Part shown: in pieces, positions 4,312 through 27,821 of the stretch
How positions within the stretch are numbered: position 1 is the first letter of the stretch
Layout: every line of letters starts with the position of its first letter
Assembly (NCBI GenBank): GCA_018304605.1
Contig: JAGVVU010000009.1
Location: 1-40,669, forward strand
Direction: 5' to 3'
DNA from: Candidatus Aenigmatarchaeota archaeon
Lineage (GTDB): Archaea > Aenigmatarchaeota > Aenigmatarchaeia > GW2011-AR5
DNA length: 40,669 bases
Made by a program: the position numbers and the translations under genes
Notes under the pieces: model-generated
The model's input: only the letters and a program-made list of their open reading frames with translations
Told to the model about the DNA's origin: nothing
Database searches by the model: none

Positions 4312-4420
4312 TTAATTTCGTATTATTATTTTGGGCGTTTTTGCGAACGCCAGTGAGCCTCCATTTAATATGTTTTCTTTTCCAGTAGGGGTTTTCTCTT
4401 TTCAAAAGAAAAGGCTTAAA

Positions 4421-4747
4421 TTAGTCCGTAAGCTCGATTTCAATATTGACTTCGCGCGGAATCCGGATTCTTGTTATCTGCCTGAGGACACGGTCATTTG
4501 CGCCGACGTCCAGGATGCGTTTGTGGATCCTCATCTCCCACGTCTCCCAGTTGCCGCCTCCGCCTCCCCTGTGCATCCCGTCGCCGCACGGAGTCTTCAT
4601 GACTGGTATGCGAAGCCTCTTCGTGGGAAGCGGTATCGGTCCCGATACGCCCACGCCTAGTTTCTGCGCAACGTCCTTTATCTCGCAGCAAAGATCATCT
4701 AGCATCTTTGGGTCTTTGCCTGTCAGTTTTATCCGGGCTGTGTTCAT
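4421..4747 (-). CDS. rps10: 30S ribosomal protein S10 (uS10)
   Basis: ARIKLTGKDPKMLDDLCCEIKDVAQKLGVGVSGPIPLPTKRLRIP...WEMRIHKRILDV. Confidence 0.95.
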   Translation of the reverse strand: MNTARIKLTGKDPKMLDDLCCEIKDVAQKLGVGVSGPIPLPTKRLRIPVMKTPCGDGMHRGGGGGNWETWEMRIHKRILDVGANDRVLRQITRIRIPREVNIEIELTD

Positions 4748-10114: not shown

Positions 10115-12322
10115 TTAAATCTGCGGTATGTCCTTCGAAAGGCCTTTGCGCTCGCGAATCTTCTGTATCGTCGCTGTTTTCAGGTCTTCCGGGAGCCTCT
10201 CGAATCTCACGTCGACCAGCGAGTAGAAGCCCTTGCCCCCGGTTGCGGACTTCAGCTGTCCCTCAAACCCGAACATCTCAGCGACCGGCAGCTTTGACTG
10301 CACTATGGCCGCGCCCATCTCCGTCTTGACGTCGAGCACGGTGCCTCTCCTGTTCTGCACTTGGTTCATCGCGTTGCTCATGAGCTCTTCCGGAACGTCT
10401 ATTCTTATCACCTGGACGGGCTCGAGAAGCGTCGGCTTCGCCCTGAGAACTGCCTCTTTTATCGCGTCGCTCACAGCCGGCAGCACCTGCGCCGGTCCCC
10501 TGTGTATTGCATCTTCGTGCAGCTTCGCGTCTGTCAGCTTTATCTTTATGCCGGTGCACGGTTCGCCGCACAGCGGCCCATTGTCCATCACGCGCTCGAA
10601 CGCTTCCGTGACGAGCTCCATCGTCTCGCTCAGGTATTGTATGCCCTTTGTCACGTCGACAAGGCTGTTCCTGTTGAAAATGTCATATAGCTTTTTCGCC
10701 TCATCCCGGTCCATGCCCGCTTCCACGAGCTTTGGTATAAGCTCTTTCAGGTATTTCCTCACATTTTTCTCCTCTATCCTGCCGTCCGCGAGCGCCTCGT
10801 ACAATCCCGGTTCCATCGGCTCGACCTTCACGTAGAAGCGGTTGTGCTTGTTCGATGATTTCCCTTCCACCTCGGGACTTTCCAGCCTGACGGTTTCCCT
10901 GTATATGACTATGGGGGGCGACGTTGTCACATTCAGTCCCTTCTCCTTCAGGGGCCTTTCTATCTTGGCATCTATGTGAAGCTCGCCCAGTCCTGAAACG
11001 AGATATTCGCCCGTCTCCTCGTTTATCTTGATGGCGAGCGTCGGGTCTTCGCGGCTTATCTGCCTGAGAAACATTATCAGCTTCGGAAGGTCTTTCGGGT
11101 CCTTGCATTCTATCGACTTCGTGACGACAGGCTCGAACATGTGCTTTATCGCCTCGAACGGCTCTATCTCCCTTTCGGGATCGCAAAGCGTCTCGCCCGA
11201 GAATGTGTCGGTCAATCCCACTATCCCGACTATGTTGCCCGGGCTTATCTCGTCCATCTGCACGCGCTGCGGCCCTTTGTAGATGGAGACCTGCTGTATC
11301 CGTTTTGTCATGTGCTGGCTTACCAGGCGCACTTCCTGCCCCTTCCTGAGCGTGCCGGAGAATATTCTGCCCGTGGCAACAAGTCCTGCATGAGGATCAG
11401 GCACCACTTTTGTGATTATGATGGCAAGCGGCCCGTTCGGGTCCATAGCCAGCATGCTCTTTCCTATCTCGCTCTCAAGGGAGCCGTGCCAGACTTTTTC
11501 TATCCTGTATTTCTGCGCATCCGCCGGATTAGGCAGGTGCTTCACGACAGCATTGAGCAGGCCCCTGTGCAGCGGCGCCCGCCTCGAGAGCTCTTCATCA
11601 TTTCCGCTTGTCGTGTAGTCTATGATATCCTTGAATGTTATCCCTTCCTTTTTCATGTACGGGACGCTTATCGCCCATTTACGGTAGCCCGAGCCGAAAG
11701 CCACGGACCCATCGTCGACCTTTACCATGCATCCCTCTGCAAACTCTTTCTCGGCGTATTTCTGTATCAGCCTGTTTACCTGCGTGATGATGCCGACGAA
11801 TCTCTCCTGCATCTGTTCCGGAGTAAGCTTGAGCTCGCGTATCAATCTGTCCACCTTGTTGATGAAGAGGATTGGCTTGACGCGTTCGTGAAGGGCCTGC
11901 CTTACGACCGTCTCGGTCTGGGGCATCACGCCTTCGACCGCATCGGTAAGTATTACAGCACCGTCCACCGCCCTCATTGCCCGTGTGACGTCGCCTCCGA
12001 AGTCGACGTGGCCCGGCGTGTCGATGAGGTTGATGAGATAAGTTTCAGGATGGCTGACGCCTTTGGCGTCTGTCGTTTCGATATCATGGACCATGGACAC
12101 GTTTGCGGCGAATATTGTGATGCCTCTTTCCTGCTCCTGCTTGTCGAAGTCGGTGAACAGCTGCGTGCCTGCCAGCTGTTCGGACATCATGCCTGCCCCG
12201 GCTACCAGCGAATCAGTGAGAGTCGTCTTCCCATGGTCGATATGAGCGGCTATTGCGATATTCCTAATATGCTTCGGGTCCTTCATCAAATCCACAATTT
12301 CTTCAGATCGGTCTTTTGCCAT
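10115..12322 (-). CDS. fusA: Elongation factor aEF-2
   Basis: RNIAIAAHIDHGKTTLTDSLVAGAGMMS...DTPGHVDFGGDVTRAMRAVDGAVIL; full length 735 aa. Confidence 0.98.
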   Translation of the reverse strand: MAKDRSEEIVDLMKDPKHIRNIAIAAHIDHGKTTLTDSLVAGAGMMSEQLAGTQLFTDFDKQEQERGITIFAANVSMVHDIETTDAKGVSHPETYLINLIDTPGHVDFGGDVTRAMRAVDGAVILTDAVEGVMPQTETVVRQALHERVKPILFINKVDRLIRELKLTPEQMQERFVGIITQVNRLIQKYAEKEFAEGCMVKVDDGSVAFGSGYRKWAISVPYMKKEGITFKDIIDYTTSGNDEELSRRAPLHRGLLNAVVKHLPNPADAQKYRIEKVWHGSLESEIGKSMLAMDPNGPLAIIITKVVPDPHAGLVATGRIFSGTLRKGQEVRLVSQHMTKRIQQVSIYKGPQRVQMDEISPGNIVGIVGLTDTFSGETLCDPEREIEPFEAIKHMFEPVVTKSIECKDPKDLPKLIMFLRQISREDPTLAIKINEETGEYLVSGLGELHIDAKIERPLKEKGLNVTTSPPIVIYRETVRLESPEVEGKSSNKHNRFYVKVEPMEPGLYEALADGRIEEKNVRKYLKELIPKLVEAGMDRDEAKKLYDIFNRNSLVDVTKGIQYLSETMELVTEAFERVMDNGPLCGEPCTGIKIKLTDAKLHEDAIHRGPAQVLPAVSDAIKEAVLRAKPTLLEPVQVIRIDVPEELMSNAMNQVQNRRGTVLDVKTEMGAAIVQSKLPVAEMFGFEGQLKSATGGKGFYSLVDVRFERLPEDLKTATIQKIRERKGLSKDIPQI

Positions 12323-16313: not shown

Positions 16314-16385
16314 ACAAATATTTTCTTTTGGCTTAATGATTTTTCTTTAATATTCTTTTCCAAGATTTTCTTTCTAAGAAAAGCC

Positions 16386-16811
16386 TTACTTGAGCGACTT
16401 CTGCTTCTTTCCTGTCCTTATCGCTTCTAGCGAAACATCATTGACCTTGATCACCGCGTATTTCACGCCGCCCATGCTGCCGACGGAGCCGCCCTGGCTG
16501 CCGCCTATGCCCTCGATTACGACCTGGTCGTGCTCCGAGACGTGGTTGATCGCGCCTGTTCTCGGCACGTGCGCGGTCACCTGCTTTCCGTTCTTGATGA
16601 GCCTTACGCGCACGCACTTTATCAGGCCGGAGTGGGGCTGCTTTTGCTCCACGACTCGCTTCTCCAGCACGATGCCTTTTGCCTGTGGAGCGCCCTCCAT
16701 AGGGTCTTTTTTCTTCTTTATCTGCAGAACGCGATTCCTATATTTAATCTGCTTCCACTTGTATCTCTTCCTGTCCTTTTTCAGTTTCCTTGCTGCGAAT
16801 TCTCCTGCCAT
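16386..16811 (-). CDS. rps12: 30S ribosomal protein S12 (uS12)
   Basis: [28 protein letters not shown]...[49 protein letters not shown]. Confidence 0.96.
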
Positions 16812-17870: not shown

Positions 17871-17988
17871 GCCTTCGTGTATATTCTGTTTTATTTCATA
17901 TTTTATAATAATTTTCTTTTGGACCCAGAGACCCTCTTTAATAATTCTTTTCCGAGGTTTTCTTTCTAAGAAAAGCTCAAGAAAAGGC

Positions 17989-25782: not shown

Positions 25783-26005
25783 TGGGCCCGACGGGATTCG
25801 AACCCGCGACACCCGGCTGTCTCTGGATGACGCAAGCTGCATGACGCCTTTGGCGTCTCCTTGCCTTGCGTCCGGCTTTCTTCATCCTCGGTGCCGCATT
25901 TTTCCATGCTGTCACCATGGATGTAAAAGGCCGATGCTCTACCAGGATTCTCCAGCCTTTCTTCTGGCATTCTTTCCAAGAAAGGACTGTCTGAGCTACA
26001 GGCCC
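25783..26005 (-). tRNA. tRNA-Lys(UUU) with D-loop intron (~25945-25988) and anticodon-loop 37/38 intron (~25819-25923)
   Basis: Spliced: GGGCCTG TA GCTC AGACTGGTA GAGC A TCGGC CTTTTAA GCCGG GTGTC GCGGG TTCGAAT CCCGT CGGGCCC A. Confidence 0.9.
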
Positions 26006-26006
26006 G

Positions 26007-26201
26007 CGCCTCGGTCGGGATTTTCAGGCAATTTCTAGGTTCGCTGGCGTTCTTTTCCGCCGGCGCTTTTCTTATAGAAAAGGGCCGTTTGAACCCGAGT
26101 CAGCGGCGTGACAGGCCACTATGCTAGGCCAGTTCGCACACCTTTTCAGCTGCATTTTTGGTGCAGCTTTTTTCCAAAAAGGTGCTCTACACCACCGAGG
26201 C
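26007..26201 (-). tRNA. tRNA-Asp(GUC) with D-loop intron (~26131-26186) and T-loop intron (~26021-26087)
   Basis: GCCTCGG/CCGAGGC acceptor stem, GTGGC-CTGTCAC-GCCGC anticodon arm, TCGGG-TTCAAA..T-CCCGA split T arm, G73. Confidence 0.88.
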
Positions 26202-26344: not shown

Positions 26345-26462
26345 GGTAAGCGACGTATAAACTTTCCCAAGCTCTCGCTTAGTACTCATTGTATCGCTGG
26401 AGAGATTCACTTCCAAGTTCGAAATGGGTTTGGGTCTACCCTCTCCGCTATGGCCGCCAACC
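26345..26462 (-). rRNA. 5S ribosomal RNA
   Basis: GGTTGGCGGCCATAGCGGAGAGGGTAGACCCAAACCCATTTCGAACTTGGAAG...; 5' and 3' ends pair. Confidence 0.92.
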
Positions 26463-27667: not shown

Positions 27668-27821
27668 CCCCTGATAGCTCAACGGTAGAGCGCGCGGCTG
27701 TAGTTTTTTGCATCCAGGACAAAAGCATTGTCTTTGCAATTGACACCAGTATGTGCTCGGCAGTCACCGCGAGGTTCTGGGTTCAAATGAGAGATGGACT
27801 CTGAAAATCCCAGTCGGGGGA
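27668..27821 (+). tRNA. tRNA-Tyr(GUA) with 37/38 intron (~27704-27765) and ~20-nt T-loop intron (~27788-27807)
   Basis: CCCCTGA/TCGGGGG acceptor (C1-G72), CGCGG-CTGTAG..A-CCGCG, CTGGG-TTCAAA..T-CCCAG, A73. Confidence 0.88.

Follow-up and report, generated by a model that had tools for sequence, protein, structure and literature searches.

The window analysed here, a 40,669-nucleotide stretch of DNA from a Candidatus Aenigmatarchaeota archaeon, carries on its minus strand a tRNA-Asp(GUC) gene (26201-26007) and a tRNA-Lys(UUU) gene (26005-25783), which are separated by the single base 26006 and are both interrupted by insertions. These ends agree with those given in an earlier note made from the sequence alone. 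A 5S rRNA gene (26345-26461, minus strand; Rfam RF00001, 68.9 bits) is located directly upstream of tRNA-Asp. The tRNA-Asp gene, which was delimited by manual folding, RNAfold analysis of the mature form and synteny with relatives, contains two introns, while tRNA-Lys contains two introns and one extra insertion. The earlier count of two insertions per gene, four in total, thus stands for Asp and becomes three for Lys, or five altogether. Once the insertions are taken out, mature tRNAs of 75 nt (Asp) and 74 nt (Lys) are obtained; both are compatible with a cloverleaf, which, as had been claimed, forms only after their removal. RNAfold gives the cloverleaf of mature tRNA-Lys outright. In mature tRNA-Asp, every stem pairs by hand, and the minimum-energy fold from RNAfold rearranges the D and anticodon arms. 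The exons of both genes are intact.

ARAGORN at default settings detected no tRNA in the window, missing the Asp and Lys genes as well as the Tyr and Thr genes described below, and Rfam at the gathering score returned the 5S rRNA alone. In practice, default searches of this kind overlook all four tRNA genes of the window. A relaxed Rfam tRNA match at 26147-26076 (16.4 bits) was rejected as a false frame spanning the D-loop and T-loop introns of Asp. No group I intron core was found by Rfam in the window, nor at the locus with a relaxed threshold.

Intron junctions were scored for the bulge-helix-bulge (BHB) layout, which consists of an outer exon helix, a central helix of 4 bp formed by the exon and the intron end, bulges of 3 nt (taken as cut after the second base) and an inner intron helix; significance was estimated by shuffling the intron letters in 20,000 trials per junction. 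BHB-like motifs, whose absence the earlier note had named as evidence against introns, are present at all four junctions and are better than chance, with between 0 and 56 of the 20,000 shuffles scoring as well. The T-loop intron of Asp, located at 59/60 (26087-26021, 67 nt), has a canonical motif with a 4-bp TTCA/TGAA central helix, the 5-bp T stem as its outer helix and a 3-bp inner helix (11 shuffles as good). The 37/38 intron of Lys (25923-25878, 46 nt) is likewise canonical, with a CTTT/GAAG central helix, an outer helix of 5 bp and an inner helix of 4 bp (20 shuffles). The motif of the Asp D-loop intron (26185-26133, 53 nt) is near-canonical and lacks an outer helix (0-1 bp); its central TGTA/TGCG helix is 4 bp and its inner helix 11 bp long, and none of the shuffles was as good. 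The D-loop intron of Lys (25990-25947, 44 nt) has a relaxed motif, GCTC/GAGA, with an inner helix of 5 bp and no outer helix (56 shuffles). The 3-nt bulges are accordingly combined with a 4/4-bp central helix at the two Asp junctions and at Lys 37/38, and with a 3/4-bp helix in the Lys D-loop. The lengths of ~44 nt for the Lys D-loop and ~67 nt for the Asp T-loop had been proposed before and are reproduced here. For the Asp D-loop, ~55 nt had been proposed, while the best BHB gives 53 nt. The 55-nt variant (26186-26132) retains three of the four central pairs and yields the exact D-loop of intronless relatives, so there is an uncertainty of one base at either end of this intron.

At position 37/38 of tRNA-Lys, a single insertion of ~105 nt had been suggested. 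The site held, and the insertion resolves into the conserved 46-nt intron and an extra 59-nt insertion (25877-25819) with AGCCGG duplicated at its flanks. Short 37/38 introns of a like kind, running from a boundary after CTTTTA through ..TGGTGACAGC.. to AGCCGG, occur in relatives G001, G007 and G010 (conservation was judged by reading the sequences of relatives; G numbers denote genomes, G000 being that of the window), and the 59-nt insertion was not seen in the relatives examined. Judging from the pairing potential, the 59 nt can leave in a second step at 37/38, for which there is a CTTT/AGAG motif with 4 central and 5 outer base pairs and a weak inner helix, or can leave together with the 46-nt unit as one 105-nt intron. 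Excision in one step is plausible, though the less likely of the two: the same 5′ site combined with a 3′ site between AGAGAC and AGCCGG gives a 4-bp central and a 5-bp outer helix without an inner helix, and the mature tRNA is identical by either route, yet the 46-nt unit has a canonical motif by itself, is the form present in relatives and is made in the minimum-energy fold. Retention of the 59 nt as a long variable arm of the mature tRNA was rejected, by inference only, since such an arm does not fit tRNA-Lys.

The 59-nt insertion contains a palindrome, GACGCAAG...GACGCCAAAGGCGTC...CTTGCGTC (25872-25829, minus strand; local alignment score 58 against a shuffle maximum of 25), which we refer to as element 2. 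Its exact core recurs in the same genome at C21:1300 and 2325, in frame in open reading frames. The palindrome GACGCCAAAGGCGTC was also noticed in frame in protein genes at 12051-12070 of the window (minus strand) and in contig C2 of G003, as well as at the two C21 sites; the encoded peptide is xTDAKGVMQ, and the window site lies close to the N-terminal part of the EF-2 gene. As a short palindrome placed in frame within protein genes, and within an RNA gene too, element 2 is like the Rickettsia palindromic elements. Element 2 is archaeal, and the likeness is one of placement.

The earlier note regarded the configuration of tRNA-Asp, with introns in the D- and T-loops, as striking. The observation is confirmed, and the case is not an isolated one. 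A tRNA-Tyr(GUA) gene in the window (27668-27821, plus strand) has one intron at 59/60 (27788-27807) and another, positioned by hand, at 37/38 (27704-27765). A tRNA-Thr(GGU) gene (37234-37103, minus strand) has an intron in each strand of the anticodon stem (37206-37178 and 37163-37134), with 4/4-bp central helices and 5 and 1 of 20,000 shuffles as good. Elsewhere in the genome, Glu, Arg, Gly and Leu-type genes are also intron-bearing, many at non-canonical sites, and just 4 of the 23 tRNA genes recovered with an intact T-arm are of intronless length (71-75 nt). An open reading frame at 38014-37205 (minus strand) ends inside the tRNA-Thr gene; it may be a degenerate homing endonuclease, its LAGLIDADG-like match being weak (E 0.054).

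The best matches of the rpoB gene are from Candidatus Aenigmatarchaeota (70-87% identity), a phylum in DPANN (NCBI kingdom Nanobdellati), which bears out the earlier proposal that the host lies outside Thermoproteales. The Asp/Lys locus is syntenic in many relatives, and its intron sets differ within the same family. In G001, there is an Asp D-loop and a Lys 37/38 intron only; G010 has an Asp D-loop intron and Lys introns in the D-stem and at 37/38; G011 and G016 have Asp 37/38 together with Lys 37/38 and T-loop introns; G009 and G014 have an Asp T-loop intron; G007 has Asp 37/38 and two introns in the anticodon arm of Lys; and G006 has Lys D-loop and anticodon-loop introns. The T-loop site of Asp is empty in G001 and G010, and an exact empty site for the Lys D-loop intron is present in G001, G011 and G016. 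The empty sites of G001 (GTTCAAATCCCG; CTCAGCCTGGTAGAGC) are identical to the predicted spliced products. Comparison with these relatives, which belong to the same genus or the same family, confirms the predicted boundaries of the Asp T-loop and Lys D-loop introns, up to shifts that are neutral for the product. Since intron sets differ and empty sites occur among relatives, the introns are gained and lost quickly.

A scan of this order for T-loop introns at position 59/60 gave 25 rows, two of which (L037 and L144) were dropped by hand as false. In the remaining 23, exon TTCA faces intron TGAA (10 cases), GGAA (5) or AGAA (1), and exon TTCG faces CGAA in 7/7. The predicted splice helix covaries with the exon in a compensatory manner, as BHB splicing predicts, in cases that are not fully independent, some of the introns being orthologous; the Fisher-type value of 1 in 245,157 ignores this shared ancestry and is not a strict probability. 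Long Asp or Lys introns of G016 (L018), G007 (L021) and G011 (L027) were seen to share a module of ~100 nt that contains a kink-turn-like GGTTGATAAGG...GGTTCTGACC. Besides 5S and tRNA, Rfam returned only sub-threshold matches for the long introns of these three genomes, so that a guide-RNA role for them is unsupported; no Rfam family fits the module.

The Asp T-loop intron matches many places outside tRNA genes in relatives. The 5′ half of the intron is filled by a copy of a short hairpin repeat, element 1 (26090-26049, minus strand). A covariance model with 11 pairs, R1, was trained on 12 copies selected for their intergenic position, and the Asp T-loop intron has its best score in the window (54.8 bits; E 7e-12 in the window and 1.7e-10 in the genome). 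The letters of the loop, tail and helix are all common to the intron and to intergenic element 1. By this agreement of sequence and structure, the intron is homologous to a dispersed intergenic hairpin repeat. The exact core pattern of the repeat has 10 matches, two of them overlapping, in its own genome and none in the control, and the outer helix covaries (none of 500 shuffles scored as high). At E ≤ 0.1, R1 finds at least 63 matches in G000, at least 68 in G002 and from at least 9 to at least 68 across six relatives, these counts being lower bounds, as 150 candidates were scored in each genome, and the E-values rough. Further matches fall within tRNA introns (T-loop, 37/38 and D-loop) of G002, G006, G009, G010, G011 and G016, all on the sense strand of the tRNA. 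Among 49 matches outside T-loops, which include some other tRNA introns, 24 are preceded by the stop codon of a sense open reading frame, and in about 16 of these 24 the stop overlaps the first bases of the element. Intergenic copies thus have a tendency to set in at the stop codon of the gene upstream, and in part they continue into ATATTA..GGCTCACTGGCGTTCGC. As for the other introns, that of the Asp D-loop is similar both to an intergenic element at G000:C46:44424 and to an intron in a Glu D-loop, and that of the Lys D-loop is similar to introns found in the D-loops of relatives. Further copies of element 1 outside tRNA genes of the window were noted at 4374-4421, 16352-16390 and 17944-17981, all on the minus strand.

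No clear target-site duplication was seen at element 1, and no transposase could be tied to it. A Y1 transposase is encoded in G000, G002 and G010, with fragments in G011, and none was found in G001, G003 or G006. A link between this transposase and element 1 was not upheld, as the repeat-rich genomes G003 and G006 are without it.

A single gene for the splicing endonuclease EndA was found in the genome (G000:C46:62348-62968); it encodes a one-unit protein of 207 aa that combines PF01974 and PF02778. Relative to the M. jannaschii enzyme, the alignment shows a Lys-rich 6-residue insertion before the active-site His. This loop, KKGPKSAKEHTKW, aligns without gaps with KKGKRSEREHSKW of N. equitans and is absent from M. 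jannaschii. Such loops have been linked to a broad substrate range (PMC12397907), and we suggest that the loop may be what allows relaxed motifs to be tolerated here. In all correctly aligned homologues (L199-L228, of which row L224 is in the wrong frame), the column of the M. jannaschii catalytic Lys156 is Ala, followed by Lys or Arg, and the Lys-rich loop beside it is conserved. Because Ala replaces the catalytic Lys, the activity of the predicted enzyme is not self-evident. RtcB is encoded in the genome as well (PF01139, E 3e-146). Two copies of it were observed (G000:C54:29137-31959 and C45:4842-7566), and in each of them profile position 50 is followed by an interruption of ~1.5 kb; the one at C54 lies in one long open frame, suggestive of inteins.

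We consider it very likely that these are functional aenigmatarchaeal tRNA genes with protein-spliced BHB introns, several of which derive from dispersed hairpin repeats. The mature folds, the BHB motifs, the empty sites, the covariation of the splice helix, the EndA and RtcB genes and the homology between the Asp T-loop intron and the repeat carry this reading; the mismatch and lack of an outer helix in the Lys D-loop motif and the Ala at the EndA Lys156 column count against it, as do the failure to tie a target-site duplication or transposase to element 1 and the incompleteness of the genome. The pre-tRNA would be transcribed with all introns, each bulge would be cut by the single-gene EndA with its N. 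equitans-like loop next to the active-site His, and the exons would be joined by RtcB; splicing probably takes place in the cell. Several introns would have arisen when short hairpin repeats came to lie in a tRNA gene where the exon pairs with the intron end; an insertion of this kind would be tolerated because the pairing allows it to be spliced out.

That tRNA-Asp and tRNA-Lys are decaying pseudogenes invaded by repeats is very improbable. Several insertions per gene would be in keeping with decay, as would the AGCCGG duplication in Lys, by which 59 nt are left without a fully canonical removal motif; against this, the exons are intact, all stems pair, the splice motifs are maintained and many relatives have the locus in synteny. 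Intact Asp or Lys genes elsewhere, which the earlier note had named as a sign of pseudogenes, were not found: pattern searches together with the loci, a partial tRNA inventory of an incomplete MAG (82.6% complete), revealed no second copy of either gene, so the two are not obvious pseudogenes. A more serious alternative, which we take to have a real though lesser chance of being right, accepts the introns and ascribes their likeness to intergenic hairpins to a shared RNA function, such as that of a 3′-end processing or protein-binding hairpin, or to gene conversion among tRNA introns, rather than to mobile insertion. The intergenic copies are on the sense strand, right after stop codons, like a 3′-UTR element; the hairpin is a conserved structure, because its outer helix covaries; and no mobilising enzyme is linked to it. 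Such an origin accounts less readily for the sharing of loop, tail and helix letters alike at 54.8 bits, for presence and absence at single loci with intron-free sites in sister genomes, and for the presence of the repeat in all three kinds of site, the T-loop, the anticodon loop and the D-loop. Under the preferred reading, in which several introns derive from dispersed repeats, element 1 would be mobile and the direction would be from repeat to tRNA gene rather than the reverse.

Multiple non-canonical BHB introns (Sugahara 2008) and intron transposition (Fujishima 2010) are established in Thermoproteales tRNAs, as cited in PMC4033280 and PMC4090602; the earlier note had likewise called multi-intron tRNAs well established in that group. 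The locus described here resembles them in having several introns per tRNA, non-canonical positions and similar introns across different tRNAs. The reviews describe sequence sharing between tRNA introns (PMC4033280, PMC4090602), the transposition mechanism being called unknown in one of them (PMC4090602). Here, in contrast, the phylum is a different one, Aenigmatarchaeota, and the sequence that the introns share is found between genes as a dispersed repeat, too. Multi-intron tRNAs with non-canonical BHB introns are also known in ARMAN, Korarchaeota and N. equitans (PMC4033280) and in Asgard archaea (PMC11291895), where Atabeyarchaeia and Freyarchaeia have multiple, often non-canonical introns in over half of their tRNA genes; that lineage is unrelated, and no repeat origin is described in the available text. 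ARMAN (Micrarchaeum), with tRNA introns and an epsilon-2 endonuclease (PMC12397907), is likewise ultrasmall and combines relaxed introns with a specific loop adjoining the active site, whereas the EndA found here, at ~207 aa, is one unit encoded by one gene; its loop is N. equitans-like, and Ala occupies the column of the catalytic Lys. The Lys-rich insertion before the active-site His is shared, by sequence alignment only, with EndA of the Crenarchaea-specific-loop (CSL) type; unlike that type, no second (beta) subunit gene was found in G000, G006, G009 and G011, which gave one match each, in a search that a strongly diverged subunit could escape. In Caldiarchaeum tRNA-Thr, intron gain is tied to mobile DNA, with presence and absence between close genomes, as here, yet the element is 1.8 kb long and carries a recombinase gene (PMC3293823), whereas element 1 is a ~40-nt hairpin repeat without coding capacity. 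In its many dispersed copies of a short palindrome, element 1 is similar to REP/MITE-like mobile palindromic repeats.

We found no paper on multi-intron tRNAs in Aenigmatarchaeota and no precedent for homology between a tRNA intron and a dispersed intergenic hairpin repeat. The class of introns is thus known, and their occurrence in Aenigmatarchaeota and the intron/intergenic-repeat homology are new within the literature searched. The observations extend heavily interrupted tRNA genes to this phylum, where they occur alongside a single-gene EndA whose loop is N. equitans-like and whose catalytic Lys column is altered. Tentatively, an archaeal counterpart of introners can be envisaged, in which a short dispersed hairpin repeat would insert in tRNA genes and, since it pairs with the exons on either side, could be spliced as a BHB intron from the outset; intergenic repeats would then be a continual source of tRNA introns. 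Since the source sequence is visible outside tRNA genes of the same genome and sister species offer both occupied and empty sites, intron gain becomes directly testable. The finding bears on how archaeal tRNA introns arise and hints at the origin of new ones.
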